Source: Pelomonas sp. Root405
Lineage (GTDB): Bacteria > Pseudomonadota > Gammaproteobacteria > Burkholderiales > Burkholderiaceae_C
Length of the DNA: 64,000 nt
Direction: 5' to 3'
NCBI RefSeq assembly: GCF_001425165.1
Contig: NZ_LMDU01000001.1
Location: forward strand, 1,085,311 to 1,149,310
Below, in pieces: positions 48,330 to 62,714 of the stretch (the stretch's first letter is position 1; each line of letters starts with the position of its first letter). Both the position numbers and the translations under genes were made by a program. The notes under the pieces were generated by a model. That model ran no database searches. It was given only the letters and a program-made list of their open reading frames with translations, and had not been told where the DNA came from.

Positions 48330-51300
48330 TCAGTTCCACTTCCATTGCCAGATCAGGTCCAGCGCGGTGTCGTCGCCGCTTTGCGCCCGCAGCGTGAAGC
48401 GCTGGGCGATGCGGTAGATGAGCTGCCAGGAGCCGGTCGTGGCATTCAGGCTGCGCTCGTAGCCGACATACCAGCGCCGCGAGATCTGCTTGCCCAGCCG
48501 CACGATGGTCGAGCGCGTGTCGTCATCGCTCTGCGACAGCGACAGCTCGTCCAGCCCGATGTTGCGCAGCGCGCGGCCGGTGGCGCCTTCGCCTTCGCCG
48601 CTCAGCAGGGCGACAGCGGCACGTTGCAGCAGGGCGGTGTCGGTGCGACCGAGGCCGTCGGGCTCGCGGCCGAGCAGCAGCCAGGAGAGCTTGTCGGTGT
48701 CGCTCATGTCAGGCTCGGAATACAGGCTGACGCGCGGTGCCAGCGCCGTGCCGCCGACATACACGCCCACGCGGATGTCGAGGTTGGGCCGCACGGCCAG
48801 CAGGTCCAGCGAGGGGTTGTTGAGCGTGCCGGTGAAGCTGATGTCGCCGCGCTCGATCTCCAGCTTCTGGCCGTAGGCGGCGTACTGGCCGCCATCGGCG
48901 TCGAGCTTGCCGGTCACGCGCAGCGGGGCATCGTCCTTTTGCGAGATCTGCAGCTGGCCGCGCAGCGTGGTCGCCAGGCCGCGGCCGCGCACCTTGAAGT
49001 CGCGGCCGAAGTCCAGCGCGACATTGACGGTCGAGCGGCGCACGGCCTCAGGGGGCGGTGGCGTCGATGGTGACTGAAGGCCGCTGTTGCGAGAGCTGCG
49101 CACCACGGTCACGTCATCGGCCAGCGTCGGCGCATCGGCCTGCGTGAAGTCGATCAGGCCCTCGTCGGCGCGCAGCTTGCCGGCCAGCTGCAGGCCCTGG
49201 TCGTCGAGGTCCAGCTGGGCCTCGCCGCTGGCGACGATGCGGCGGTCCACGCGCGACAGCATGCGCAGCTTGTCGGCCTTGAGCTCGACATGGGCAGTCG
49301 GCTTGGCGCCGAAGTCGGCGCGGCCGGTGGCGCGCAGCCAACCGTCGCCGCCGCGGGCCTCCAGCCGCGTCAGCTCGGCATGCTGGCCGTTCAGCGCCAG
49401 CGAGAAGCGGCCTTCCGTGAAGTCCACGCCGTACAGCAGGTGGCGCAGCGCCAGGCCGTCGCCATCGACCGTGCCGGTCAGCTGCGGCGCTCCGGCGCGG
49501 CCCGCCAGCTGCACCGTCGCGCCCACGCGCCCGGCCAGGCGCCAGCCGGCCGGCACCCAACTGCCCCAGTTGGCGAGCTGGGCCACGTTGGCCTGCAGCA
49601 CGCCCTGCACCGGCGTCTGGGCGTTCGGCCACAGCCCCGTGGGCCGCAATGCGATCGCGCCGCCGAAGCTGCCCAGCTCGCTGCCCGCCAGGCCCTGCGC
49701 GAACTGCCAGAGGCCGTCCTGCACATTGAGCGCCAAGCGCAGGTCGGTGAGGCCGAGCGGGCGTGAGCCGAACTCATCGGTCACCCGCAGGTCGCCGCTC
49801 TTGCGCTCGATCAGCAGTTCGGCCGTCAGCTTCTCATTGAAGAGCAGCGAGGCGTGGCCTGTCACGCGCAGATCGCCGCTCCAACCGAAGTCGGGTTGCC
49901 AACGCGCCAGCAGCGGCGCGGCGGCCAGGTCTTCCAGCTGCAGCTGCGCGCGCGCTTCCGGTCGCTCGCCGCCCCGCCAGCTCAAGGCCTGCCAACGCAC
50001 GAAGGCGCCGCCGACCTCGGCGCGGCCGGGTTCCGCGACGACGCTCAGGCCCGGGCCAATCTTCAGGTTCACGCCGGTGGCGGCCAGCATGGCGGGCGTG
50101 TTGGGCCGCAGCGGCGCCATGTCCAGCGTGGCGATACGGCCGGCCCAGGCCTGGCCGTCCCAGCGGCCCTGGGCCTGCAGGGTGGCGCCGAGGTTGAGGT
50201 CCTGCTCCGGCGCGGGCCGCGCGCGGCCGGCGAGCTGCGCCTTGATCTCGTGGTTGCTGCGGCGCCCTTGCAGGTCGACCTTGGCGGTCTTGATGTCCGC
50301 GCGTGGATGGCGCAGGCCATTGACTTCCAGCGCCAGGGCCAGCGGGCCGTCGCCGTCGGCGCCCGGCAGCGGCAGCGTCCAGCGGCCTCGCGCATTGCCG
50401 ACCGCGGTGCCGCTTGCATTCACGCCCGTCAGCGTCAGGCGGCCATTGCCGCCGATGCGCCAGGACGGCGTCGCCGCGGCCTTGCCACGGGCGGCAGGCG
50501 CGCGCTGCAGCTGCGCATCGCCCTCGCCCTCGGCCTGGCCGGCAACGGGCGCTTGCTCGAACAGCGCCAGCAGCGGGTTGAGTTCGGCCAGCCTGGGTGC
50601 CTGCAGCGCCCATTGCGCCGAGGCGGCCGTGGTGCGCGCCTCCCCCTTGGCTTGCGCGCGGTTGCTGCCCAGGCGCGCATCGGCGTCGAAGGCCGCGGCG
50701 TCGGCAGCCCGTGCGCGCTTGACGCTGAACTGGCCCTGCAGCGGCAGGCCGCCGAGCTGGCTGGGCAGCACCTTGGCATCGACCGTGCCCGTGGCGTTGT
50801 CGAGGCTGCTGCCGCGCACGTCCAGCTGCGCATCGGCGTTGAGCTGGGTGGCGGCCAGGCGTGCCCAGGCGGTGCCTGGCTGGCCGCGCCAGAGCAGGCG
50901 CGGGTCGAACTGGCGCAGCCTGGCGTCCAGCCGGGCAGCGAGGCCGTTCGCCGCGGTGGCGTCGACGCGGCCGCTGGCCTGCAGCGCGGCGTCGCCGCTG
51001 CTCAGGCGCGCTTCCTCGATGTCCCAGCTGCTGCCTTGTTCATGCAGCCGGCCCTGCACGCGGGCCTGCAGGCGCAGCGGCTTGGCCTGCACCGTGCCGC
51101 GCAGGTCCAGCCGGGCGGACAGGGGCTGGTCGGCGCCGCCGCCGGACAGTAGCAGCGGGCCGTCCAGCCGCGCCGGCGTGGCACGCGCATCCAGTGCCTC
51201 GGGGCGCAGGCCTTGCACGCGGGCATCGAGCTGCCAGCGGCCGTTCGTTTCGCGCGCGCCCTTGCCCTGCACGCGGCCACCGCCACTCAGCTCGGCGTCC

Positions 51301-52283
51301 AGTGCCGACAGGCGCAGGCTGGTGAGTTGGTCGGGCCGGCCGGCCACTGTCATGACCAGGCGCCTGACGGGCAGGGCGCCCTGGTCCCAGCGGCCAGCGG
51401 CGTCGTTGCGCAGGTCGGCCTGCAGCGTGGCCTCGGTATTCAGGGCCGGTGCGTCGAGCGTGGCGGTGCCGGTCAGCGCCGTGCGCGGCAGGCCGGGCAC
51501 GAGGCTGCTGAGGGCGGCGAGATCGAATTTGTCGGCCTGCAGCTTCAGCGCGTTGACGGGCCAGGGCGCGAACGGGCGGACCTGGCCCTCTGCCTTCAGC
51601 GTCTGCTTGGCCGCCTCCAGCTCGGCCTTGGCGGCCAGCCTGGCCAGCGGCCCGCGTGCGGCGGCCACGGCCATCCAGGGCAGGTCGGTGGCTTCGTTCT
51701 GCTGCACCGTCAGCGTCGCCTCGGTGTGCAGCGGCGCGGCGCTGTCGACCTTGGCCTCGCCAGTGAGCAGCAGGTGCTGCCAGCGTGCGCCGGTCAGCTT
51801 GACGTGGTGGGTGCCGCTGCGCGGCAGGTTGATCTCGGCGACGATGTTCTGCAGCGGCGGCTGGGTGGCCGACCACGTCAGCCTGCCGATGTGCAGCTTG
51901 GCGATGCGCACGCCCAGCGGCAGCGACAGCTCGGGCGGCTCGACCGTGGGCCCGGTGCTGGGCTGGGTGCGGACGATGACGTCCTGGACCGACACCTCGG
52001 ACGCTCGCAGCAGGCGCTGGCCAGGGCTGGCTCCCAGACCCGACCAGCGCAGGCCTATCAACTCGGCCTCGCCGCCGGCCCACTTGAGCAGCAGGCGCTT
52101 GGCGCGGAAGTCGCCCAGCAGCGAACCCTCCGGCGCCTCGACCTGCACGCCCGGCAGGTGCGCCATCAACCAGGCGCCGCCCGAGGGGCGCTGCAGCAGC
52201 CAGGCGACGAAGGCCGCCGCCAGCACGAGGACGGCGGTCAGCCCGATCAGGGCGTTACGCAGGATGCGGACGGAGCGCCTCAC
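48330..52283 (-). CDS. tamB: Translocation and assembly module subunit TamB
   Basis: A 1317-residue AsmA/TamB-like envelope protein. An N-terminal membrane anchor (about residues 7-30) is followed by a long beta-rich region with repeated short amphipathic strands. The C-terminal ~300 residues match the TamB (DUF490) domain and end LIYRIAQRFTLRAQSGDD. TamB spans the periplasm and is thought to move phospholipids and to help TamA assemble outer-membrane proteins. GTG 52283 overlaps the tamA stop (GTGA), so I choose it over a GTG 11 codons upstream. Confidence 0.92.
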   Translation of the reverse strand: MRRSVRILRNALIGLTAVLVLAAAFVAWLLQRPSGGAWLMAHLPGVQVEAPEGSLLGDFRAKRLLLKWAGGEAELIGLRWSGLGASPGQRLLRASEVSVQDVIVRTQPSTGPTVEPPELSLPLGVRIAKLHIGRLTWSATQPPLQNIVAEINLPRSGTHHVKLTGARWQHLLLTGEAKVDSAAPLHTEATLTVQQNEATDLPWMAVAAARGPLARLAAKAELEAAKQTLKAEGQVRPFAPWPVNALKLQADKFDLAALSSLVPGLPRTALTGTATLDAPALNTEATLQADLRNDAAGRWDQGALPVRRLVMTVAGRPDQLTSLRLSALDAELSGGGRVQGKGARETNGRWQLDARVQGLRPEALDARATPARLDGPLLLSGGGADQPLSARLDLRGTVQAKPLRLQARVQGRLHEQGSSWDIEEARLSSGDAALQASGRVDATAANGLAARLDARLRQFDPRLLWRGQPGTAWARLAATQLNADAQLDVRGSSLDNATGTVDAKVLPSQLGGLPLQGQFSVKRARAADAAAFDADARLGSNRAQAKGEARTTAASAQWALQAPRLAELNPLLALFEQAPVAGQAEGEGDAQLQRAPAARGKAAATPSWRIGGNGRLTLTGVNASGTAVGNARGRWTLPLPGADGDGPLALALEVNGLRHPRADIKTAKVDLQGRRSNHEIKAQLAGRARPAPEQDLNLGATLQAQGRWDGQAWAGRIATLDMAPLRPNTPAMLAATGVNLKIGPGLSVVAEPGRAEVGGAFVRWQALSWRGGERPEARAQLQLEDLAAAPLLARWQPDFGWSGDLRVTGHASLLFNEKLTAELLIERKSGDLRVTDEFGSRPLGLTDLRLALNVQDGLWQFAQGLAGSELGSFGGAIALRPTGLWPNAQTPVQGVLQANVAQLANWGSWVPAGWRLAGRVGATVQLAGRAGAPQLTGTVDGDGLALRHLLYGVDFTEGRFSLALNGQHAELTRLEARGGDGWLRATGRADFGAKPTAHVELKADKLRMLSRVDRRIVASGEAQLDLDDQGLQLAGKLRADEGLIDFTQADAPTLADDVTVVRSSRNSGLQSPSTPPPPEAVRRSTVNVALDFGRDFKVRGRGLATTLRGQLQISQKDDAPLRVTGKLDADGGQYAAYGQKLEIERGDISFTGTLNNPSLDLLAVRPNLDIRVGVYVGGTALAPRVSLYSEPDMSDTDKLSWLLLGREPDGLGRTDTALLQRAAVALLSGEGEGATGRALRNIGLDELSLSQSDDDTRSTIVRLGKQISRRWYVGYERSLNATTGSWQLIYRIAQRFTLRAQSGDDTALDLIWQWKWN

Positions 52284-54094
52284 AGCGTGATGCCTACGGA
52301 GAAGTGCAGCCGCCACTTGCCCGTCTCATGGGCACGCGCGAAGTCCACACGCAGCGGGCCGACGGGGCTGCGCCAGCGCACGCCGGCACCGTAGCCCACG
52401 ACGGGCTTGAAGTCGTTCCAGCGCGAAGCGGCATTGCCGGCGTCGACAAAGGCTGCGCCCCAGAGGCTGGGGAAGCTGGCCAGGATGGGCCGCGCGATCT
52501 CGACGCTGCCGGTGGCCATCACGCGGCCTCCCACGGTCAGGCCGTTCTGCACCGGCCCGAGGCTGCGGTAGGCATAGCCGCGGACCGACTCGTCGCCGCC
52601 GGCCAGGAAGAGCAGCTTCTCCGGCACACCGACCTGTTCGCGCGTGACGACCTGGGCCAGCTCGGCGCGGGCCGAGCCGAACCAGCCACCGATGGGCTTG
52701 TAGTAGCCCAGCTTGAACTGCATGCGGCCGAAGGGGCCGCTGTCATCGGTGCCGCCGCCACGTACGTGGCCCAGGCCAATGAGGGCCAGGGCCTGGTGGC
52801 CGTCGGTCGGCAGCAGGTTGCTGTCCAGGCGCCGGCGTATCCACTGTTGGTTGATGGAGATGGCCAGGTTGGTGTTGACGACATTGCCGGCCGTCTCGCG
52901 GGCGCGCAGCAGTTCGACATAGCTCAGGCGCTCGTTCTGCGTGGCCTCGTAGATGCGGCCCAGGCGCAGGCCCAGGTTCTGGGCCGTCTTGTCACTGCTG
53001 CGGTCATGCTCGAACTGCAGCGAGGCGAGGTTGCGCTTGAGGTCGGGCTGGGGGTGGGAGCTGAGCTCCAGCTCCAGGCCGCTGAGGTCGCGGCTGACCT
53101 GTACCTTGGAGCGCGCGCGCACGGGCAGGTCGAAGGGCCGGCGGTGCAGGTGCTCGACGCTGATGCTCTGGCCGTTGTTGGCGTGGTAACCGACGGCGAC
53201 GGTGGCCTGCTGCAGCGAGCTTTCGGTCAGCGTCACGAGGACCGGGCTGGTGCCATCGGCCTCGACCGTCTCGGGCTGCAGCTGCACGCGCACGGCGTCG
53301 AAGAGCTGGGTCTTGGCCAGGCGCTCCTGGAAGTCGGCGAGCTGCTGCTCGGTGTAGACGCCACCGCGCTTGAAGCCGGTCAGGCGCTCGACGGTCTGGC
53401 GGGTCTGGCGGTTCAGGCCTTCGATGCGCAGCGTGCCGAACCTGGCCCGGTTGCCGCTGGCCACGACGAGGCGCAGCTCGGCCGTCTGCGTGTCGGGATC
53501 GACGCGGGCATTGGTTTCGGCCCAGCGCGCCAGCGGATAACCGCCGGCGCGGACGCGCACCAGCAGCTCGTTCTTGCCGCTGGCCCACGCGGCCTGGGTA
53601 AAGGTGTCGCCCTCGCCCAGCGGCCAGGCGCGGCGCAGGCTTTCGCGCAGCGCCTTGGCGTCGTCATTGGCGTCGGCCAGGCCCTCCTGGAAGTCGATGC
53701 TGACGCTGGCAACGCGGGTACGCGGCCCCGGCGTGACGTGCAGGCGCAGCTGCGAGGCGTCATCCGGATCGCGCTCGACCCGCGCGGTCGCGTTGAAGAA
53801 GCCCGCCGTCTCCAGCAGCGTCTGGGCCTGGGCCGGCGCCGCGGCCGCGAGGCGAGCCAGCTCGACGCGGCTCAGCGCTGCCTCGCTGGCGCGGTAGCGG
53901 GCGATGTCCAGGTGCTGCCGCAACAGGTTGCGCAGCCGGTTGTCGCGGAAGTCGTCCTCAACCTCGATGTCGAGGCTGTAGACGGCGGGCGCGTCGGCTG
54001 GCACGTCGGGGACCGGGACGGGCGCTGGCGTCGGGGCGGTTGTCGCACAGCCAATCAGCAGCACTGCAGCAAGCAGTGCGAGAAGACGCCTCAT
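52280..54094 (-). CDS. tamA: Autotransporter assembly outer-membrane protein TamA (Omp85 family), lipoprotein-like N-terminus
   Basis: A 604-residue Omp85 protein. POTRA-type domains occupy about residues 35-290, followed by a 16-strand barrel with the loop-6 motif ESVRGYAY and the final strand WRLHFSVGITL. The N-terminus MRRLLALLAAVLLIGC looks like a lipoprotein signal with Cys16, not a plain signal peptide, then a Pro/Thr/Val-rich linker. It works with TamB. Its ATG overlaps the VWA gene stop (ATGA) and its stop overlaps the tamB GTG. Confidence 0.9.
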   Translation of the reverse strand: MRRLLALLAAVLLIGCATTAPTPAPVPVPDVPADAPAVYSLDIEVEDDFRDNRLRNLLRQHLDIARYRASEAALSRVELARLAAAAPAQAQTLLETAGFFNATARVERDPDDASQLRLHVTPGPRTRVASVSIDFQEGLADANDDAKALRESLRRAWPLGEGDTFTQAAWASGKNELLVRVRAGGYPLARWAETNARVDPDTQTAELRLVVASGNRARFGTLRIEGLNRQTRQTVERLTGFKRGGVYTEQQLADFQERLAKTQLFDAVRVQLQPETVEADGTSPVLVTLTESSLQQATVAVGYHANNGQSISVEHLHRRPFDLPVRARSKVQVSRDLSGLELELSSHPQPDLKRNLASLQFEHDRSSDKTAQNLGLRLGRIYEATQNERLSYVELLRARETAGNVVNTNLAISINQQWIRRRLDSNLLPTDGHQALALIGLGHVRGGGTDDSGPFGRMQFKLGYYKPIGGWFGSARAELAQVVTREQVGVPEKLLFLAGGDESVRGYAYRSLGPVQNGLTVGGRVMATGSVEIARPILASFPSLWGAAFVDAGNAASRWNDFKPVVGYGAGVRWRSPVGPLRVDFARAHETGKWRLHFSVGITL

Positions 54095-55281
54095 TTGCTC
54101 AGCAGCCGCATCGCGCCCTCAAGCCCGGACAGGGTCAGCGGAAACATGCGCTGCTGCATCAGCTGCTGGATCAGCGCGATGCTCTGCCGGTACTGCCAGA
54201 CGCCTTGCGGCTCGGGGTTGATCCACGCATACCGGGGGAAGGCGTGCGTGAGGCGCTGGATCCATTCCGCGCCGGGTTCTTCGTTGTTGTATTCGACGCT
54301 GCCGCCGGCCTGCAGGATCTCGTAGGGGCTCATCGTCGCGTCGCCAACGAAGATGAGCTTGTAGTCGCGGTTGTACTTGCGGATCAGGTCGAAGGTGCTC
54401 AGCTTCTCGGCAAAGCGGCGCCGGTTGTTCTTCCATACGAAGTCATAGACGCAGTTGTGGAAGTAATAGAACTCCAGGTGCTTGAACTCGCTCTTGGCGG
54501 CAGAGAACAATTCCTCCACGCGGCTGACGTGCTCGTCCATGGTGCCGCCGACGTCCATCAGCAGCAGCACCTTGACCTTGTTGTGGCGCTCGGGCTGCAT
54601 GCGGATGTCCAGCATGCCGGCGTTGGCGGCGGTGCCGTGGATGGTGCCGTCCAGGTCCAGCTCCAGCTCCGACCCCTCGCGGGCGAAGCGGCGCAGGCGG
54701 CGCAGCGCGACCTTGATGTTGCGCGTGCCGAGTTCCAGCGTGTCGTCGTAGTCGCGGTAGGCGCGCTGCTCCCAGACCTTGACGGCACTCTTGTTGCCGC
54801 CGGCGCCACCGATACGGATGCCCTGCGGGTTGTAGCCGCTGTTGCCGAAGGGGCTGGTGCCGCCCGTGCCGATCCAGCGGTTGCCGCCCTCGTGGCGCTC
54901 CTTCTGCTCCTCGAAGCGTTTTTTGAGCGTCTCCATCAGCTCGTCCCAGCCCATCTTCTCGATGGCGGCCTTCTGCTCGGGCGTCAGGTTGATTTCGAGG
55001 TTCTTCTTCAGCCACTCCAGCGGCACCTCGGCCGTGAAGTCGGTCAGCATTTCCACGCCCCTGAAGTAGGCAGCGAAGGCGCGGTCGAACTTGTCGTATT
55101 GGGTCTCGTCCTTGACGAGGCTGGTGCGGGCCAGGTGGTAGAAGTCGTCAATGCTGGCGGTGCCGCCGTTGTCGGGGCCGCCGATGACGCCGGCCTGCAA
55201 GGCCTCCAGCAGCGTCAGGTACTCGGGCACTGTCACCTTGAGCTTGGCGGCACGCAGCGTATAGAAAAACTGGATCAGCAT
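54091..55281 (-). CDS. VWA (CoxE-like) domain protein
   Basis: A 396-residue cytoplasmic protein. The N-terminal half is helical (LIQFFYTLRAAKLKVTVPEY, FAAYFRGVEMLTDF), with a Gly-rich linker (GGNRWIGTGGTSPFGNSGYN). The C-terminal VWA-like domain begins KVKVLLLMDVGGTMDEHV; the MIDAS motif there is DVGGT (Asp243-Thr247) instead of DxSxS. Such proteins usually pair with a MoxR ATPase; one lies 5.8 kb away on the same strand. ATG 55281 is the family start. Its TGA overlaps the tamA ATG. Confidence 0.85.
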   Translation of the reverse strand: MLIQFFYTLRAAKLKVTVPEYLTLLEALQAGVIGGPDNGGTASIDDFYHLARTSLVKDETQYDKFDRAFAAYFRGVEMLTDFTAEVPLEWLKKNLEINLTPEQKAAIEKMGWDELMETLKKRFEEQKERHEGGNRWIGTGGTSPFGNSGYNPQGIRIGGAGGNKSAVKVWEQRAYRDYDDTLELGTRNIKVALRRLRRFAREGSELELDLDGTIHGTAANAGMLDIRMQPERHNKVKVLLLMDVGGTMDEHVSRVEELFSAAKSEFKHLEFYYFHNCVYDFVWKNNRRRFAEKLSTFDLIRKYNRDYKLIFVGDATMSPYEILQAGGSVEYNNEEPGAEWIQRLTHAFPRYAWINPEPQGVWQYRQSIALIQQLMQQRMFPLTLSGLEGAMRLLSK

Positions 55282-55395
55282 GGCGACGCGGTCAAGTACA
55301 GCGGAGTCGAAAACGATTATGCAGTGCGATATTCCCGCGACTTTGTAGGAGGGCGAGCCTAGTATGGGCCGCATGTCGCTGCTGCAGGGCCCGCC

Positions 55396-56673
55396 TTGAA
55401 AGCCGTCGCGCCGCCCGGTGCCGATGCCATGCTGCTGCGGCTCATCGAGTCGCTGGAGATGCAGGACGGACGCTGGCGGGCGCGCCAGGGCGACTGGCTG
55501 CTGGACAGCAGCTTCCAGCCGGTGTTCAGCTTCCCGCACCGCCGCGCGGTGGGCTACGAGGCCTTGCTGCGGGTGGCAGACGCGGCCGGCAACGCCGTCT
55601 CGCCGCTGCAGTTCTTCGAGCAGCTGCGCAGCTTCGAGCAGCAGTGGGCGGCCGACCGCCTGTGCCGCCTGCTGCATGTCCACAACTTCGTGCACCAGGC
55701 CGATGACGACAGCTGGCTGTTCCTGAACATCCACCCCACGGTCTTCGTGCACGGCGGGCAGCAGACGCAGGCGCTGGATGCGTCGGTGCGGACCATGCAG
55801 GCCCTGGGCCTGCCCATGCACCGGCTGGTGCTGGAGGTCACCGAGGACATCATGGCCCAGGAGACCGACTTCGAGCGCGCCGTGGCCAATGTGCGCGAGA
55901 CCGGCTGCCTGCTGGCGCTGGACGATTTCGGCGCGGGTCATTCCAACTTCGACCGCATCTGGCACATCCACCCGGAGATCGTGAAGCTGGACCGCAGCCT
56001 GCTGCGCCGTGCCTGCGATTCACCGCGCATCGCGCGCGTGCTGGCGCAGATGGTGTCGCTGCTGCACGAGTGCGGGTCGCTGGTGCTGCTGGAAGGCGTG
56101 GAGACGCGCGACGAGGCGATGCTGGCGCTGGACGTGGACGTCGACATGGTGCAGGGCTTCGCCTTCGGCAGGCCGGTCCCCGGCATGCTGGGGCCGCAGG
56201 GCGTGTCGGACGAGATCGAGGAGATCTGGGAGCTGCTGGACGGGCGCCATGCCGACACGCGCCGCGTTCATGCCATGCATGTCGCACCCTATCGTCAGGC
56301 GCTGCGGCAAGCGCAGGCGCGGCTGCAGGACAGGCCCTTGGCCGAGGCCTGCGTCGAGCTGCTGGCCTTGCCCGGCGTGCAGGTCTGTTTCCTGCTGGAC
56401 GAGCAGGGCCGGCATGTGGCTGAGCCGCTGCTGCCGGCGGGCGTGCCCGACCGGTCGCAGGACCCGCGCTTTCGGCCGCTCGGCCTGGCCAGCGACGCGC
56501 GCTGGGCGCGGCGGCCTTACTTTCGCCGCGCGCTGGAGGAACCCGGCGTCACGCAGATCACGCGGCCCTATCTGAGCCTGCACGGCGCACGCATGTGCGT
56601 GACGCTGTCGGTCGCCTGCGCCACGCCGGCCGGCCTGCGCGTGCTGTGCGCGGATATCGACTGGACGAGCTAG
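55396..56673 (+). CDS. EAL-domain c-di-GMP phosphodiesterase, YkuI-like
   Basis: A 425-residue cytoplasmic protein. The EAL domain (about 35-265) keeps its catalytic residues: EAL at 55-57, FLNIHPTVF, VLEVTED, LDDFGAGHSNF, IVKLDRSLL, LLEGVET and QGFAFGRP. The C-terminal ~130 residues resemble a PDC/Cache-like sensor (YFRRALEEPGVTQITRPYLS) without membrane segments, the YkuI arrangement. It should hydrolyse c-di-GMP to pGpG under control of a cytoplasmic ligand. Start TTG 55396 has AGGG six bases upstream; ATG 55429 is an alternative. It diverges from the VWA gene. Confidence 0.88.
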   Translation: MKAVAPPGADAMLLRLIESLEMQDGRWRARQGDWLLDSSFQPVFSFPHRRAVGYEALLRVADAAGNAVSPLQFFEQLRSFEQQWAADRLCRLLHVHNFVHQADDDSWLFLNIHPTVFVHGGQQTQALDASVRTMQALGLPMHRLVLEVTEDIMAQETDFERAVANVRETGCLLALDDFGAGHSNFDRIWHIHPEIVKLDRSLLRRACDSPRIARVLAQMVSLLHECGSLVLLEGVETRDEAMLALDVDVDMVQGFAFGRPVPGMLGPQGVSDEIEEIWELLDGRHADTRRVHAMHVAPYRQALRQAQARLQDRPLAEACVELLALPGVQVCFLLDEQGRHVAEPLLPAGVPDRSQDPRFRPLGLASDARWARRPYFRRALEEPGVTQITRPYLSLHGARMCVTLSVACATPAGLRVLCADIDWTS

Positions 56674-58304
56674 CGACCGTACAAGTCGCCGAAGAAGTCG
56701 CCTGGCAGCCAACGTGGCCGCTCGGGCTGCTGGGCGATCTCGCGGGCCAGCCCCCATTGCAACTGGGCAAAGCGCTGGACTGCGGCCCAGTGGAAGGGCT
56801 GGCCGAGGTCGTCGCCGGGCTGGTGGTAGCGCTGGCGGCGGAAGTCGCGCATCAGCGCGTTGCCGTCTTCCTTGGTGTCGAAGGAGGCGCCGCCCGGCCC
56901 GAGGATGACGGCGGGAATGCCTTGACGCACGAAGCTGTACTGATCGGAGCGCGTGAATCGGCTCTGCTCGGGTTGCGGGTCGGGCGCCACACCCAGGCCC
57001 AGATCGGCCGCGGCACGAGCCACCGCGTCGCCCAGCGTCGAATGTTCCGCGCCGAGGGCGACGACGTCCTTGAAGTCGTGCAACAGGATGGGCATGTCAA
57101 TGTTGACGTTGGCCACCAGGCGGGCCGCTGACACGGGCGGGTTGCGCGCGAAGTAGGCGGAGCCGAGGTAGTTCTTCTCCTCGGCGGTCAGCGCGACGAC
57201 GAGGACGGATCGGTCGGGCGCGGCGCCGTGGGCCAGCAGCCGGAACACCTCCAGCAGCGTGGCGATGCCGAGCGCGTTGTCCATCGCGCCGGGGTAGATC
57301 GTGTCGCCCTTCTTGCCGAGATGATCCAGGTGGGCCGACAGCACGACCACTTCATCCTTCAGGCGCGGGTGGCGGCCCTCGATGAGGCCGGCGATGTTGT
57401 GGCTGCGGGCCTGGCCGTGCACGCTGTGCCGTACCAGGCGGGCGACGAGGCCGAGGTCGCCGCGTGGCAGCGGGCGGCCGGCTTCGGCGTCGGACACGAG
57501 GGTTGCGTAGTCGCGGCCGAGCGCGGCCAGCAGCTTCGGAGCGGCCTGGACGCTGACGGTGGCGGCGGCGCGCAGGCCGGGGATGTCGCTGCCGCCGCGG
57601 CCGTCTGGGGTCTGCCAGTCCATCGCGACGTTGTCGGCAAACTGGCGGTTGAGATGGAAGGGCGCGACGATCTCGCTGCGCGGCGTGGCCAGCGTGATGA
57701 CGCCGACGGCGCCGTGGCGCGCGGCCAGTTCCGCCTTGGTGCGCCCGTTGCCGAAGTGGGCGCCTTCGGTGGACGGCATCTGCGGCGGCCGGCCGGACAG
57801 CACGACCGCAATCCTGCCCTTGACGTCCAGGCCGGCGTAGTCGTCCAGGCCGAAGCGCGGCGCGGTGATGCCGTAGCCGGCGAAGACCAGCGGCGCCTTC
57901 ACGTCGCTGTGAAGTACCGACAGGTCGGGACGGGTGCTGAACTCATCCAGCCAGGCCAGGCGCTCACAGGTCTCGCCACGGCAGAGGTCGAGCGACGGCG
58001 CCGTGGCCGCCAGCCGGCTGGTTCTCAGCGGCACGGGCAGGGCGTAGCTGCCCGCATCGCCCATGGGCTTGAGGCCGAGCTGCGCGAACTGGCTGGCCAC
58101 GTAGGCGGCGGCCAGGTCGTAGCCGCGCGTGCCGGTCTCGCGGCCTTCCAGCAGCGGATCGGCCAGAAAGTGCAGATGCGCCTGCAAACGGCGCAGGTCG
58201 GCCTGCGCGCGATGCATCAACGCCACCGTTGAGTTCGCCGCCGCGGGCAGGGCGGCTGCCGCTGCCGCGGCGACCCAGGTCTCCAGCAGGTCGCGCCGCT
58301 TCAT
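56670..58304 (-). CDS. M28 family zinc aminopeptidase-like protein
   Basis: A 544-residue exported peptidase. The start MKRRDLLETWVAAAAAAALP resembles a Tat signal. A PA-like insert domain (about 130-290) precedes the M28 catalytic core. Zinc ligands are in LSAHLDHLG, GAMDNALG, LTAEEKNY, NVNIDMP and RYHQPGD. It should trim amino acids from peptides in the periplasm. ATG 58304 overlaps the S9 peptidase stop (ATGA). Its TAG shares a CTAG with the convergent EAL gene stop. Confidence 0.88.
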   Translation of the reverse strand: MKRRDLLETWVAAAAAAALPAAANSTVALMHRAQADLRRLQAHLHFLADPLLEGRETGTRGYDLAAAYVASQFAQLGLKPMGDAGSYALPVPLRTSRLAATAPSLDLCRGETCERLAWLDEFSTRPDLSVLHSDVKAPLVFAGYGITAPRFGLDDYAGLDVKGRIAVVLSGRPPQMPSTEGAHFGNGRTKAELAARHGAVGVITLATPRSEIVAPFHLNRQFADNVAMDWQTPDGRGGSDIPGLRAAATVSVQAAPKLLAALGRDYATLVSDAEAGRPLPRGDLGLVARLVRHSVHGQARSHNIAGLIEGRHPRLKDEVVVLSAHLDHLGKKGDTIYPGAMDNALGIATLLEVFRLLAHGAAPDRSVLVVALTAEEKNYLGSAYFARNPPVSAARLVANVNIDMPILLHDFKDVVALGAEHSTLGDAVARAAADLGLGVAPDPQPEQSRFTRSDQYSFVRQGIPAVILGPGGASFDTKEDGNALMRDFRRQRYHQPGDDLGQPFHWAAVQRFAQLQWGLAREIAQQPERPRWLPGDFFGDLYGR

Positions 58305-60286
58305 CGGGCCAGGTGCTTGTCGAGCCAGGCGAAGAACTCGCCATACCAGACGCGGCTGTTGCGCGGCTTCAGCACCCAGTGGTTCTCGTCCGGGAACCAC
58401 ACCAGCCGCGACGGCACGCCCAGCGACTTCAGCGTGTTGTAGTAGGCCAGGCCCTGGGCATCGGGCACACGGTAGTCCATTGCGCCGTGGATGACGAGGG
58501 TGGGGGTCTTGAAGTTGGCGGCGAAGGCATGCGGGCTCTGGGCCGCGACCTTGGCCGGGTCGTCCCAGTAGGCGGCACCCAGCTCCTTGCGATGCCAGCT
58601 GTAGGCATCGTCGGCATACATGGCCTGCCAGTCGTAGCAGCCGGCGTGGCAGACATAGGCCTGGTAGCGGCCCGCCGGCACCTGGCCGTTCATCCACGCC
58701 ACCATGAAGCCGCCATAGCTGCCGCCCGTGGCGACGATGCGCTTCTTGTCGACCCAGCGTTTTTGCAGCAGCCAGTCGGTGCCGGCCTCGACGTCCTGCA
58801 GTTCGTACTCGCCCCAGTGGCCGGTGATGCTGTCGAGGAACTCATGACCGAAGCTGGAGGAGCCGTGGTAGTTCACGCAGGCGACCACGTAGCCTTGCGC
58901 CGCGAAGGCCTGATGGTTCCAGCGCCAATGCCAGCTGTCACCGAAGGCGGTGTGCGGGCCGCCGTGGATGACATGCATGACGGGCCATTTCTTCTTGGCG
59001 TCGAAGTCCGGCGGATAGGTCAGCCACATCTGCACGTCGTCGCCGCGCGCGCCCTTGATGGTCACTTCCTCAAAGCGGCCGAAACTGTGGGCTGCCAGGC
59101 GCGTGTCGTTCAGCGCCTCGATGCGGCGCAGGCCGTCTTCGCCGAGCACCGACAGCCGCGGCGGGAAGGCCATGCCGTCGTGGTTGATGACGACGAAGTC
59201 GGCGGCACAAGCAAAGCTGCCGACATGGCCGCCTTCGAAGATGGGCTCGGCCACGCGCTCGCTAAGCATGAACTGCCAGAGGTGGCGGCGGCCGCGGTCC
59301 TCGGCGGCGAACAGCACCGACTGGTCGTCCGCCACCCAGCGCAGCGGCGCGCTGACCTCGTGGTCCCAGTCGTCGCTGAAGACGGCCCAGCGGCCCTGCT
59401 GGTCGAGCACGGCCAGCTGGTTCGGGCGGTTGTGGCCCAGCGCCTGGTGGCTGGCCAGGAACGCGAGGTGCTCGCCGCCATGGCTGTAGCGCGGCGCGGC
59501 GAAATCCCAGTCGGCGTCTTGCAGCAGCGTCAGTCCCCGGCGCGTCTTCACGTCGATCTCGGCCAGCGCGAAGCGGCCGTCCAGCTTCTTCTCGGCTGCC
59601 GGGTCGAAGGCGAAGGCGATGCGCCGGCCGTCGGGCGAGATGTCGAACGTGATGGCGTCGGGCTCGGCGCGGCTCAGCTCCCAGGCACTGCCCTCGAACA
59701 GGTCGCGCGCCCGGCCGGTGGCCACGTCCATCACATGCAGATGCGGCACCCGGCCCATCGGAATGTGGTGATCCCAGAAGCGGTACAGCGCCTCGTCGGT
59801 GACGTAGGCGGTTTCCTTGCGGTTCTTGAAATCGCGCAGCGCCTCGGCCTGCGCATCGGCCTTGCGGTCGGGCCAGACCCAGGAGACAAAGGCGATGCGC
59901 TGGCCATCGGGGAACCACTTGAAGGCCTCGACACCGGTGGGCACCTGGCCGACGCGCCGCGCCTCGCCGCCATCGGGCGGGATGACGTAGAGCTGAGGCT
60001 CTTCATCCCTGACACCGGCCTGCTCGCGCTTGGCGGTGAAGGCGATCAGGTCGCCGCGCGGGCTCCACTGCGGGTTGCCGTCCTTCTCGCCGGCCTCGGT
60101 CAGGCGGCGGGGCTCCCCGCCCAGCGTGGAGAACAGCCACAGGCTGCTCTGCGCCCGGTTGGTCTGCATGGAATGGCGCGTGACGCCGGCGGCGGCCTGG
60201 GCGCCGTCGGGGCTGAGGCTGGGTTCGCCGATGCGATCCAAGGCCCAGAGTGCATCAACGTCGAAGGCCTTGGATTTGTTGTTCAT
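58301..60286 (-). CDS. S9 family prolyl oligopeptidase-like serine peptidase
   Basis: A 661-residue peptidase without a signal peptide. An N-terminal propeller (NPQWSPRGDLIAFTAKRE, ITFDISPDGRRIAFAF) is followed by a hydrolase domain with catalytic Ser523 in GGSYGGF, Asp604 in GAMDYRV and His636 in DENHW. This fits the acylaminoacyl-peptidase/S9C branch. It probably releases acylated N-terminal residues or short dipeptides. ATG 60286 overlaps the GNAT stop (ATGA), an attractive pairing of an N-acetyltransferase with an enzyme class known to cleave acylated N-termini. Confidence 0.9.
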   Translation of the reverse strand: MNNKSKAFDVDALWALDRIGEPSLSPDGAQAAAGVTRHSMQTNRAQSSLWLFSTLGGEPRRLTEAGEKDGNPQWSPRGDLIAFTAKREQAGVRDEEPQLYVIPPDGGEARRVGQVPTGVEAFKWFPDGQRIAFVSWVWPDRKADAQAEALRDFKNRKETAYVTDEALYRFWDHHIPMGRVPHLHVMDVATGRARDLFEGSAWELSRAEPDAITFDISPDGRRIAFAFDPAAEKKLDGRFALAEIDVKTRRGLTLLQDADWDFAAPRYSHGGEHLAFLASHQALGHNRPNQLAVLDQQGRWAVFSDDWDHEVSAPLRWVADDQSVLFAAEDRGRRHLWQFMLSERVAEPIFEGGHVGSFACAADFVVINHDGMAFPPRLSVLGEDGLRRIEALNDTRLAAHSFGRFEEVTIKGARGDDVQMWLTYPPDFDAKKKWPVMHVIHGGPHTAFGDSWHWRWNHQAFAAQGYVVACVNYHGSSSFGHEFLDSITGHWGEYELQDVEAGTDWLLQKRWVDKKRIVATGGSYGGFMVAWMNGQVPAGRYQAYVCHAGCYDWQAMYADDAYSWHRKELGAAYWDDPAKVAAQSPHAFAANFKTPTLVIHGAMDYRVPDAQGLAYYNTLKSLGVPSRLVWFPDENHWVLKPRNSRVWYGEFFAWLDKHLAR

Positions 60287-60891
60287 GGTCTCTGTCGGGT
60301 CAATTGCCAGTTCAGGTGTGCCCTGACCTCGGGCCATTCGCCCACGGTCAGGCTGTACATCACGGTGTCGCGCACCGTGCCGTCGCGGCGCAGCGCGTGG
60401 TGGCGCAGCACGCCGTCACGCTTGGCGCCGAGGCGCTCGATGGCGCGCTGCGAGGCGTGGTTGAAGTTGTCGGTGCGCCAGCCGACGAGCTGGGCGCCGA
60501 GCGTCTCGAAGGCGTGCGTCAGCATCAACAGCTTGGCCGTCGTGTTGACCGCGCTGCGCTGCACGCGCTGGGCATACCAGGTGTAGCCGATCTCGACGCG
60601 GGCGACCGCCGACACGATGTCGTGAAAGCTGGTCGAGCCCAGCACCTCGCCGCTCGCCGCGTCCAGCACGGCGAAGGGCAGGCGGTGGCCGGCGGCCTGG
60701 CCGGCGAGCGCGGTCTCGATGTAGGCCTGGGTCTCGTCCGGCGCGGGCACGCTGGTGAAGCGCAGGTTCCACAGCTGGCCGTCCGCCGCCGCGGACTGCA
60801 GCCCGGGCGCATGCGCCAGCGTCAGCGGCACCAGTCGGATCGGCCCGGCGGCCAGCGTGACCGGCCCGACGGGCCGGAGCGCCTGGTTCAA
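60283..60891 (-). CDS. GNAT family N-acetyltransferase (RimJ/RimL-like)
   Basis: A 202-residue GNAT. The order LVPLTLAHAPGLQSAAADGQ, VLDAASGEVLGSTSFHDI, RVEIGYTWYAQRVQRSAVNT and AIERLGAKRDGVLRHHALRR matches RimJ/RimL-type acetyltransferases. The substrate may be a protein N-terminus, an amino acid or an antibiotic. It starts at TTG 60891, which overlaps the stop of the upstream membrane protein (TTGA); no ATG fits the fold start. It ends in a 4-base overlap with the S9 peptidase. Confidence 0.85.
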   Translation of the reverse strand: MNQALRPVGPVTLAAGPIRLVPLTLAHAPGLQSAAADGQLWNLRFTSVPAPDETQAYIETALAGQAAGHRLPFAVLDAASGEVLGSTSFHDIVSAVARVEIGYTWYAQRVQRSAVNTTAKLLMLTHAFETLGAQLVGWRTDNFNHASQRAIERLGAKRDGVLRHHALRRDGTVRDTVMYSLTVGEWPEVRAHLNWQLTRQRP

Positions 60892-61115
60892 GGCTTGTCC
60901 TTGAGGATCACGCGCCGGGCCGCCCAGCGGCCCACGCCGCAGCCGACGACGATGAGGACCAGGGCTCCCATCTGCTGGGCGTTCCAGTCGGTGCTGGCGA
61001 TGAAGTCCACGCCGAGCAGCCGGCCCAGCCCCCAGCCGGCCAGGGCGCCTCCGACAAAGCCGATGGCATCGGCAAAGCCCTCGCGCATCGCGCGGTCGAA
61101 ATCATTGGTAGCCAT
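60888..61115 (-). CDS. Small glycine-zipper membrane protein
   Basis: A 75-residue protein with two hydrophobic segments: a Gly-rich one (IGFVGGALAGWGLGRLLG, glycine-zipper spacing) and MGALVLIVVGCGVGRWAARRV. The short loop DFIASTDWNAQ separates them. Positive residues flank both ends. The family is not recognised; it resembles AtpI-type or helical-hairpin proteins only in layout. ATG 61115 shares one base with the MoxR stop. Confidence 0.75.
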   Translation of the reverse strand: MATNDFDRAMREGFADAIGFVGGALAGWGLGRLLGVDFIASTDWNAQQMGALVLIVVGCGVGRWAARRVILKDKP

Positions 61116-61969
61116 CAGCGGTTGTTTCTCTGCATGAATACGAGCTTCTCGAACAGCGTCAGGTCTTGCTCGTTCTTCAGCAAGGCGCCGACCAGCGGCG
61201 GGATGGTGACCTTCTCGTCCTTGGACTGCAGCGCCTCGACGGGCACGTCCTCGGCGACCAGCAGCTTGAGCCAGTCGATCAGCTCCGAGGTGCTGGGCTT
61301 CTTCTTCAGGCCGGGCAGGTTGCGCACGTCGTAGAAGTTCTTCAGAGCTGCGGCCAGCAGGTCCTTCTTGAGCGTCGGGAAGTGCACGTCGACGATCTTC
61401 TGCATCGTCGCGGCATCGGGGAACTTGATGTAGTGGAAGAAGCAGCGGCGCAGGAAGGCGTCCGGCAGTTCCTTCTCGTTGTTGGACGTGATGAACACCA
61501 GCGGCCGGTGCCGGGCCTTGATCAGCTGGCGCGTCTCGTAGACATAGAACTCCATGCGGTCGATCTCGCGCAGGAGGTCGTTCGGGAATTCGATGTCGGC
61601 CTTGTCGATCTCGTCGATCAGCAGCACGACCGGCTGGTCGGCCTCGAAGGCCTGCCACAGCACGCCCTTGACGATGTAGTTCTCGATGTGGCGGACGCGG
61701 TCGCTGCCCTCGATGCCGGCGAGCTGGCTGTCGCGCAGCCGGCTGACGGCGTCGTATTCGTACAGCCCCTGCTGCGCCTTGGTGGTGCTTTTGATATGCC
61801 ACTGCAGCAGCGGCATACCCAGGGCGGTGGCGACCTCTTCGGCCAGCATGGTCTTGCCGGTGCCGGGCTCGCCCTTGATCAGCAAGGGGCGCTGCAGCTT
61901 GGCCGCCGCATTGACCGCGAGCATCAGATCGGCGGTGGCGACGTACTGGTCGGAGCCTTGGAATTTCAT
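61115..61969 (-). CDS. MoxR family AAA+ ATPase
   Basis: A 284-residue AAA+ ATPase. Walker A is GEPGTGKT (33-40), Walker B VVLLIDEIDKAD (Asp119-Glu120), sensor I FITSNNEKELPDAF with FLRR (Arg finger region). MoxR ATPases act as chaperones that mature or activate enzymes, typically with a VWA partner. Here the gene that follows is a small membrane protein, and the only VWA gene of the window lies 5.8 kb on. It is divergent from cytochrome c with a 100-base shared upstream region. Confidence 0.9.
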   Translation of the reverse strand: MKFQGSDQYVATADLMLAVNAAAKLQRPLLIKGEPGTGKTMLAEEVATALGMPLLQWHIKSTTKAQQGLYEYDAVSRLRDSQLAGIEGSDRVRHIENYIVKGVLWQAFEADQPVVLLIDEIDKADIEFPNDLLREIDRMEFYVYETRQLIKARHRPLVFITSNNEKELPDAFLRRCFFHYIKFPDAATMQKIVDVHFPTLKKDLLAAALKNFYDVRNLPGLKKKPSTSELIDWLKLLVAEDVPVEALQSKDEKVTIPPLVGALLKNEQDLTLFEKLVFMQRNNR

Positions 61970-62029
61970 GGGGCGTGCAGAGGGGAAAGGGCCTGGGCCG
62001 GGGGTGCCGAGCCAGTATAGGTGGGCCCC

Positions 62030-62035
62030 TATAAT
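62030..62035 (+). promoter_or_regulatory. -10 element of the cytochrome c promoter
   Basis: A perfect TATAAT lies 34 bases before the cytochrome c ATG. The -35 region is GC-rich and not convincing. On the minus strand a TATACT (62014-62019) could be the -10 of the divergent MoxR gene, so the two promoters may overlap. Confidence 0.5.
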
Positions 62036-62069
62036 CGCCGCCGCTCACGACAAGACACCTCCCGGGACC

Positions 62070-62714
62070 ATGAAAAAACTGCTGCAGATCTCGCTCGCCC
62101 TGGCCACTGCCCTGACCGCCTTGGCCGCCCAGGCCCAGGATGTGAAGGCCGGAGAGAAGAAGGTCGCGATGTGCATCGGCTGCCATGGCATTCCGGGCTA
62201 CCAGGCCAGCTTCCCCGAGATCCACAAGGTGCCCATGATCGCGGGCCAGAACGCCAAGTACATCGTGGCGGCGCTGCAGGCCTATGCCAAGGGCGATCGC
62301 AAGCACCCGACGATGCGCGGCATTGCCGCCTCGCTGACCGATCAGGACATGGCCGACATGGCCGCCTTCTACGAGCAGCAGGCCCAGCGGCCGGCCGCTG
62401 CCGACAGCGTCCCCGCGCCGGCGGCCAATGTGGCCGAGCTGCTCAACAAGGGCGCATGCATCTCCTGCCACGGCGCCAATTTCAGCAAGGCCATCGACCC
62501 GAGCTACCCCAAGCTGGCCGGCCAGCACGCCGACTACCTGACGGTTGCCCTGAAGGCCTACAAGACCGAGCGCAATGCCAACGTGGGGCGCAACAACGCC
62601 ATCATGGTCGGCCAGGTCAAGCAGTTCAGCAATGCGGAACTGAAGGCCATCGCCAAGTACATCAGCACGCTGCCGACCGAACTGGCGACGGTGCCGCAGC
62701 CGAAGCTGCGCTGA
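62070..62714 (+). CDS. Diheme cytochrome c4-type protein
   Basis: A 214-residue periplasmic protein. The signal peptide is about 1-23. Two similar heme domains follow, with CIGCH (35-39) and CISCH (130-134) and candidate axial Met in HPTMRGIA and NNAIMVGQV. The length and internal repetition fit cytochrome c4, which shuttles electrons to terminal oxidases. It has its own -10 element and a terminator. It is divergent from MoxR. Confidence 0.9.
   Translation: MKKLLQISLALATALTALAAQAQDVKAGEKKVAMCIGCHGIPGYQASFPEIHKVPMIAGQNAKYIVAALQAYAKGDRKHPTMRGIAASLTDQDMADMAAFYEQQAQRPAAADSVPAPAANVAELLNKGACISCHGANFSKAIDPSYPKLAGQHADYLTVALKAYKTERNANVGRNNAIMVGQVKQFSNAELKAIAKYISTLPTELATVPQPKLR

Follow-up and report, generated by a model that had tools for sequence, protein, structure and literature searches.

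Genes for MoxR-type ATPases and for proteins with a CoxE-like VWA domain were described in the initial annotation of this locus as normal neighbours, which raises the question of why, in Pelomonas sp. Root405, one such pair is spread over several kilobases. In the DNA analysed here (64,000 nucleotides of contig NZ_LMDU01000001.1, positions 1,085,311 to 1,149,310; the window is this whole stretch) the two genes lie on the minus strand with 5.83 kb between them, a space filled by genes for a small protein, a GNAT acetyltransferase, an S9 peptidase, an M28 peptidase and an oppositely oriented EAL phosphodiesterase. The annotation had the coordinates, strands and families of the pair right, at a rounded distance of 5.8 kb, and Pfam confirmed the families it named for the enclosed genes except that of the small protein. 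It offered two explanations, an ancestral pair split by insertion or a larger MoxR-dependent envelope system, and proposed a comparison with related Burkholderiales. That comparison favours insertion. We consider it probable (about 0.76) that MoxR and VWA form one functional ATPase/co-chaperone pair, the genes of which originally adjoined each other and became separated by successive insertions. The comparative data support a split with insertion and do not support a fixed functional unit; insertion is favoured because close spacing is frequent in other families and the contents of the interval grow towards the genus.

Co-occurrence and spacing of the MoxR and VWA genes

The two genes were searched for in 160 genomes of Burkholderiales, including that of the window (thresholds E≤1e-90 for MoxR and E≤1e-60 for VWA; the 160-genome draw is taken to be identical for the two counts, as the listed handles suggest). 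Both genes were present in 74 genomes, only MoxR in 1, only VWA in 3 and neither in 82, so that 74 of the 78 genomes having either gene have its partner as well. When the window's own genome is left aside, 73 genomes carry both, and four of them, which belong to the home family, have the genes 777-892 bases apart. Among the other 69, the genes are co-oriented within 5 kb in 49 (within 400 bases in 32 and within 100 bases in 23), and 23 of these 49 linked pairs leave no room for any gene in between. The description of the genes as normally side by side holds for the 32 of 49 linked pairs outside the family that lie within 400 bases, but it is too strong as a general statement: the genes are on different contigs in 17 of the 69 genomes (17 of 73 with the family counted, some perhaps through fragmentation), and in 3 of the 69 they share a contig but are far apart or on opposite strands. 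The MoxR and VWA genes co-occur in genomes and need not adjoin.

A closer set of 60 relatives gave a close match for MoxR in 49 and for VWA in 48; in the odd one (G031) the MoxR gene lies 460 bases from a contig end. For the comparison of loci, 131 were taken, of which 6 were dropped as duplicates and 16 because their MoxR or VWA was not complete enough. In the 109 remaining loci with both genes these are always on the same strand, and the gap between them ranges from 8 to 10825 bases. On the outer side of MoxR, the gap to the cytochrome gene is 84-354 bases in 97 of the 98 loci measured and 2777 bases in one. One further locus (L205) has the S9 gene and no MoxR within 11.5 kb, and the gap there may be larger still.

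In the window, the pair sits in two co-directional runs with the reversed EAL gene in between (Table 1), because stop-to-start overlaps of 1-4 bases join the genes for MoxR, the small protein, GNAT, S9 and M28 into one run, and VWA overlaps TamA in a second run, VWA-TamA-TamB. This layout would also agree with a divorce of the partners, in which VWA now serves TamA and TamB and MoxR serves its new operon: the VWA and TamA genes overlap by 4 bases in the window, and among the 83 loci where TamA was matched, the gap between them is below 270 bases in 70 and above 790 in the other 13. We regard such a divorce as very improbable, given the 74 genomes with both genes against 4 with one, and given that within the genus VWA (88-97% identity) and MoxR (87-98%) are both better conserved than M28 (66-79%) and EAL (74-81%) where these are present. 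The closeness of VWA to TamA may connect this branch of MoxR-VWA pairs with the TAM (translocation and assembly module) envelope machinery.

Growth and loss of the interval between MoxR and VWA

In 111 loci, the space between the two genes contained a GNAT gene in 92, the small-protein gene in 60, S9 in 31 and M28 in 6. In the home family a GNAT gene usually lies in between, often together with the small protein; S9 is added in the Roseateles/Rubrivivax-like branch and has been lost again in several lineages. Within the genus, S9 is at the locus in 20 of 20 genomes, M28 in 6 of 20 and the window-type EAL also in 6 of 20, the spacing of MoxR and VWA varies from about 2.7 to 10.8 kb, and the flanking gaps stay short. 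Translocation of M28 or EAL to another site was considered and rejected, as the remaining genus genomes contain no copy of M28 at E≤1e-80 (14 genomes) and no close copy of EAL at 1e-70. The cargo of other genomes includes two-component genes and genes for a PIN toxin-like protein, a two-partner-secretion transporter and a flavin oxidoreductase. In six loci (L025, L027, L028, L035, L039 and L042) the interval holds a run of genes for a Ser/Thr kinase and an OmpA-domain protein, accompanied in 4 of the 6 by an FHA-EAL gene; the domains of this run were checked in L028 only. In L024, S9 is followed by about 8 kb of other cargo, with genes of the GAF-GGDEF, response regulator and hybrid histidine kinase types among it.

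The history of the cargo was reconstructed on a tree of 32 loci built from the flanking genes, in which eight inner branches are weak. On this tree the distribution of M28 corresponds to a single gain with 5 losses (Fitch 4 changes), that of the reversed EAL gene to a single gain with 9 losses (Fitch 5) and that of S9 to a single gain. On a second tree, of MoxR and VWA with 73 rows (chosen, not a random draw, and assembled after the loci had been grouped), S9 requires 8 changes, e.g. a single gain followed by 7 losses, or additional gains, and S9 is therefore dispensable too. The distances between cargo genes track those between the flanks for EAL (rho 0.78) and S9 (0.79), the value for M28 being 0.48 (p 0.07), and the common cargo has the same order and orientation throughout the genus. 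Vertical descent with repeated loss seems to fit these data best. The wide variety of cargo at one place would also be expected if the interval were a target of mobile elements, a site-specific island. This is the least credible of the explanations that we weighed, both in view of the constant order and orientation and the correlated distances just given, and because no integrase or transposase was found among the cargo proteins scanned, many cargo genes (e.g. those of L182) being outside the scan.

A more serious, though still unlikely, alternative is that the enclosed genes (GNAT at least, S9 perhaps) contribute to a MoxR-dependent system for the envelope or for peptide handling, and that the need for co-expression keeps them in place. 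The stop/start overlaps couple the genes from MoxR to M28, and the frequency of GNAT (92 of 111 loci) and the constancy of S9 in the genus speak for it. Against it stand the presence of M28 and EAL in only 6 of 20 genus genomes each, the loss of S9 about seven times on the wider tree, the variable spacing, the unrelated cargo found at the same place elsewhere, and the 23 of 49 linked pairs outside the family that have no room for a gene. Thus, the larger system proposed in the initial annotation finds no backing for S9, M28 and EAL as a set, whose contents and spacing vary, and only the GNAT part of the proposal retains some. Genes between two partners need not form a system.

Under the reading that we prefer, serial insertion into one functional pair, the adjacent genes, as seen in the close spacing of many other families, would be the ancestral state. 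GNAT, often with the small protein, would have entered between them in the home family, S9 would have joined in the Roseateles/Rubrivivax-like branch, and M28, EAL and other cargo would have followed patchily in the genus. S9, M28 and EAL would then be passengers as far as the task of MoxR and VWA is concerned. The natural series from adjacent genes through GNAT and S9 to patchy cargo makes operon break-up testable, and it indicates that a near-obligate chaperone pair survives physical separation.

A -10-like element upstream of VWA

Within the genus, the sequence upstream of VWA is highly divergent with the exception of a hexamer, CATAAT, which starts 15-42 bases ahead of the ATG irrespective of the gene farther upstream. 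In measured loci with M28 or EAL as the nearest gene upstream, the end of that gene is more distant from VWA than the hexamer (e.g. 114 versus 40 bases in the window, 89 versus 40 in L031 and 79 versus 35 in L049). In five loci (L030, L037, L038, L040 and L113) the hexamer starts exactly 15 bases before the ATG of VWA, a spacing that would result in a nearly leaderless transcript.

The element was defined as a match to TATAAT in at least five of six positions, with A at position 2 and T at position 6, within 60 bases of the start. It was found in 17 of 20 loci of the genus and in 15 of 16 of a sister group (0.5 expected in each by shuffling), as opposed to 0 of 63 loci with GNAT only (3.7 expected) and 0 of 12 adjacent pairs; the sister group and the family groupings were defined after the results had been seen. 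Control starts lacked it (GNAT 0/27, S9 0/18, TamA 0/6), and among starts that have a promoter region it was present at 73 of 83 for the cytochrome and 38 of 113 for MoxR. On the 73-row tree all positives fall into one clade (Shimodaira-Hasegawa-like approximate likelihood ratio 99), with 33 of 37 rows inside and 0 of 36 outside it, which requires five changes; the forms within the clade are CATAAT and GATAAT just upstream of VWA. In one of the negatives in the clade, L026, only 2 bases separate S9 from VWA, as expected if VWA had returned under the MoxR promoter; the other three (L029, L033 and L175) have no such explanation. Hexamers with four of six matching positions were also above the shuffled level in other S9 lineages (12 of 18 versus 2.1) and in loci with reversed inserts (5 of 6 versus 0.9), and they were at that level in GNAT-only loci (19 of 63 versus 18.4).

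We infer that the hexamer is part of a putative promoter of VWA's own. Such an element would let the pair split without silencing VWA, and genes of either orientation could then settle safely between S9 and VWA. It is thus a candidate cause, in one clade, for the admission of cargo.

Several observations weigh against this account. The expectation, set beforehand, that the five-of-six element would be present wherever VWA has a reversed gene as its immediate upstream neighbour failed: L194, L196, L200-L205, L207 and L208 have reversed inserts without this form, mostly with four-of-six matches. The element also occurs outside the clade in loci that are not on the tree (L067, L092, L099, L104 and L138, the clade of L104 being unplaced) and in 8 of 40 order-level loci (3.1 expected). 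Before regrouping, its count in GNAT-only loci was 3 of 66; L092 and L099, each with a reversed gene upstream, were moved to another group, and L138 was dropped by the size limit. No -35 element was recognised upstream of VWA, and a sigma-70 scan reported no promoter here, so that the case for the -10 element is purely a comparative one. With regard to the pair itself, no MoxR lies within the 10 kb available to either side of VWA in L101, and the predicted structure of VWA (predicted local distance difference test score 46) was too poor and was not used. Finally, S9 does not appear to be a single clean gain, and the long residence of GNAT could point to a function for part of the interval.

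Cyclic-di-GMP enzyme genes beside VWA

Genes for cyclic-di-GMP enzymes recur next to VWA. According to a profile count, a reversed EAL, a reversed GGDEF or a forward FHA-EAL gene is the upstream neighbour of VWA in 21 of 142 other loci, with 1 case downstream. This count, made with in-house GGDEF and EAL profiles, is a lower bound, as it missed L080, L149, L190, L200 and L207, in which such genes were found upstream by tblastn. Downstream, a convergent GGDEF-EAL or GGDEF gene was found in 9 of the 52 order-level loci with room, compared with 0 of 41 upstream of MoxR (Fisher p 0.004; p-values for these neighbours ignore relatedness). Over 2.48 Mb of flanking sequence, 31 GGDEF/EAL genes are adjacent and 13 are not. 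The nine downstream genes include seven, or possibly eight, that are similar to one another (35-66% over long alignments) and may go back to one old event. The bar set in advance, a cyclic-di-GMP neighbour in 15% or more of newly fetched order-level VWA loci, was narrowly missed at 5 of 40 (12.5%), a value that still exceeds the expected share. If such genes make up 1.3% of all genes, chance predicts about 0.5 cases among 40 loci on one side of VWA and 1.0 on the two sides together; the 1.3% is itself estimated from 53 GGDEF matches plus EAL-only genes over about 5300 genes. Loci with such a gene directly beside VWA include the window (55396-56673), L063, L065, L068, L073, L189, L194, L196, L201-L205, L207, L208, L224, L227, L230, L232 and L243. 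The genes have several architectures and are reversed if upstream and convergent if downstream.

We treat this recurrence as a lead rather than a result. It would be explained if VWA were tied to cyclic-di-GMP: unlike genes may have settled beside it more than once since the messenger's level regulates either the VWA/TamAB unit or the MoxR-VWA client, in which case the split pair would comprise an ATPase arm and an adaptor arm under separate control, gated by the second messenger. We consider this idea speculative, and on balance rather doubtful. If the neighbourhood is functional, it would provide a first handle on the role of an uncharacterised MoxR-VWA branch.

The MoxR and VWA proteins and related systems

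The window MoxR matches the Pfam families AAA and AAA_5 above the cut-off with Walker A and B intact, as expected of an AAA+ core; Walker A (GEPGTGKT) and the Walker B residues D119 and E120 are invariant in 113 of 113 aligned homologues. It has no match to Pfam AAA_3, either in the scan of the window or among the AAA_3 matches of its own genome. Since two other MoxR genes of the genome do have this match, the window MoxR is, judged by its profiles, of another MoxR branch than they are. VWA matches PF05762 with 29.7 bits (curated cut-off 26.4). The classical motif of the metal ion-dependent adhesion site (MIDAS) is DxSxS. In place of it, 119 of 119 homologues carry D-V/I-G-G-T/S-M, and a later aspartate, D314, is invariant among those aligned, so that the site appears altered yet conserved. 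No solved structural relative of VWA was found at E up to 0.2. Its best named relatives are from Pelomonas and Roseateles, in a named set (the best 80 of 592 confirmed stretches) that consists of near relatives.

The pair itself is of a known kind; its progressively split form is unusual, and the element at VWA and the cyclic-di-GMP neighbours are new, the latter being the weaker of the two. We did not find this MoxR-VWA split described in the open-access literature. Like the window, the CoxD-CoxE system, which acts in the assembly of the CO dehydrogenase cluster, combines a MoxR-type AAA+ protein with a CoxE-like VWA partner (PF05762). The window differs in that no CO dehydrogenase gene is among the genes profiled (48330-62714), that its VWA has D-V-G-G-T/S instead of the classical motif, and that its pair is split by cargo. 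As for the MoxR subfamily, that of PA2707 is a candidate for the window protein, which is likewise a MoxR-like AAA+ protein. PA2707 is one of seven MoxR subfamilies named in PMC3893208, and in PMC12800425 it is described as MoxR-like and conserved among Gammaproteobacteria. The MoxR-vWA-centric ternary conflict systems, as outlined in PMC7159879, share with the window a MoxR-VWA chaperone couple with peptidases nearby, but none of the VMAP, iSTAND, FtsH or beta-propeller partners named there was seen in the window, nor was a defence profile. A PADLOC search gave no support for a defence system either: of the seven proteins searched, MoxR alone had matches, and these were weak AAA ones (best 2.4e-8). 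RavA-ViaA of Escherichia coli also consists of a MoxR ATPase and a VWA co-chaperone (PMC3893208); the window MoxR has 284 amino acids and Pfam matches of the AAA type only.

In the portions of PMC7159879 and PMC3893208 that deal with the mechanism, MoxR hexamers act with a VWA co-chaperone, the MIDAS of which captures a client peptide, and ATP hydrolysis alters the client, often in the maturation of a complex. A chaperone-like role is plausible for the pair studied here: MoxR hexamers, with VWA as the substrate adaptor, would remodel a client protein, perhaps one of the envelope, or bring it to maturity. The presence of TamA and TamB in the VWA run points to an envelope client as a lead only.

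Gene layout in the window

Table 1. Genes and putative promoter element at the MoxR-VWA locus (positions in the window)
Feature	Position	Strand	Remarks
c-type cytochrome gene	62070..62714	+	divergent from MoxR; PF00034, 70 bits
MoxR-type AAA+ ATPase, 284 amino acids	61115..61969	-	Pfam AAA, AAA_5
Small hydrophobic protein, 75 amino acids	60888..61115	-	start overlaps MoxR stop by 1 base
GNAT acetyltransferase	60283..60891	-	TTG start as listed; 4-base overlap with small-protein gene; PF13302 (Acetyltransf_3), 73 bits
S9 peptidase, Dpp5-like	58301..60286	-	4-base overlap with GNAT; PF00326, 186 bits
M28 peptidase with PA domain	56670..58304	-	4-base overlap with S9; PF04389, 137 bits
EAL phosphodiesterase gene	55396..56673	+	convergent to M28 (4-base end overlap), divergent from VWA; PF00563, 144 bits
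-10-like hexamer CATAAT	55316..55321	-	begins 40 bases ahead of VWA ATG; putative promoter, comparative basis
CoxE-like VWA protein, 396 amino acids	54091..55281	-	PF05762 (VWA_CoxE); altered MIDAS D-V-G-G-T-M
TamA-like Omp85 protein	52280..54094	-	4-base overlap with VWA stop; Omp85, POTRA_TamA_1
TamB	48330..52316	-	after TamA; PF04357, 194 bits

The 75-residue protein has no Pfam and no NCBIfam match, and its designation as a membrane protein is based on its hydrophobic stretches, as read. The S9 peptidase reaches 399 of 900 bits against NCBIfam NF053518 and is thus below the NCBIfam cut-off. The leader of the M28 peptidase, read from the sequence, is twin-arginine-like. The EAL gene, called as 414 amino acids, may start at TTG 55396 or at ATG 55429, and homologues favour the latter.

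Other MoxR and VWA genes of the genome

No second MoxR-VWA pair of the window kind was found in the whole genome. Two strong MoxR genes of the AAA_3 type are located on other contigs, one adjoining TgpA and the other adjoining DUF58. An alternative partner elsewhere in the genome was rejected: the DUF58 protein has only a sub-threshold match to VWA_2 (1.2e-5, 26.4 bits; cut-off 27), and the one VWA_CoxE match besides the window VWA is a protein of the Ro60/TROVE type, the gene of which (L158, contig C12) adjoins RtcR and RtcB. The initial annotation had held that another VWA gene beside another MoxR gene, together with no conservation of the neighbourhood, would speak against its view of the locus; this combination does not exist as a whole, the neighbourhood being conserved at its edges. 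In one genome of the genus (G001), a second near-complete VWA match (91%) is located at C85:9991-11157, besides a partial copy (95%) on C120, and may represent an extra copy or a mixed assembly.

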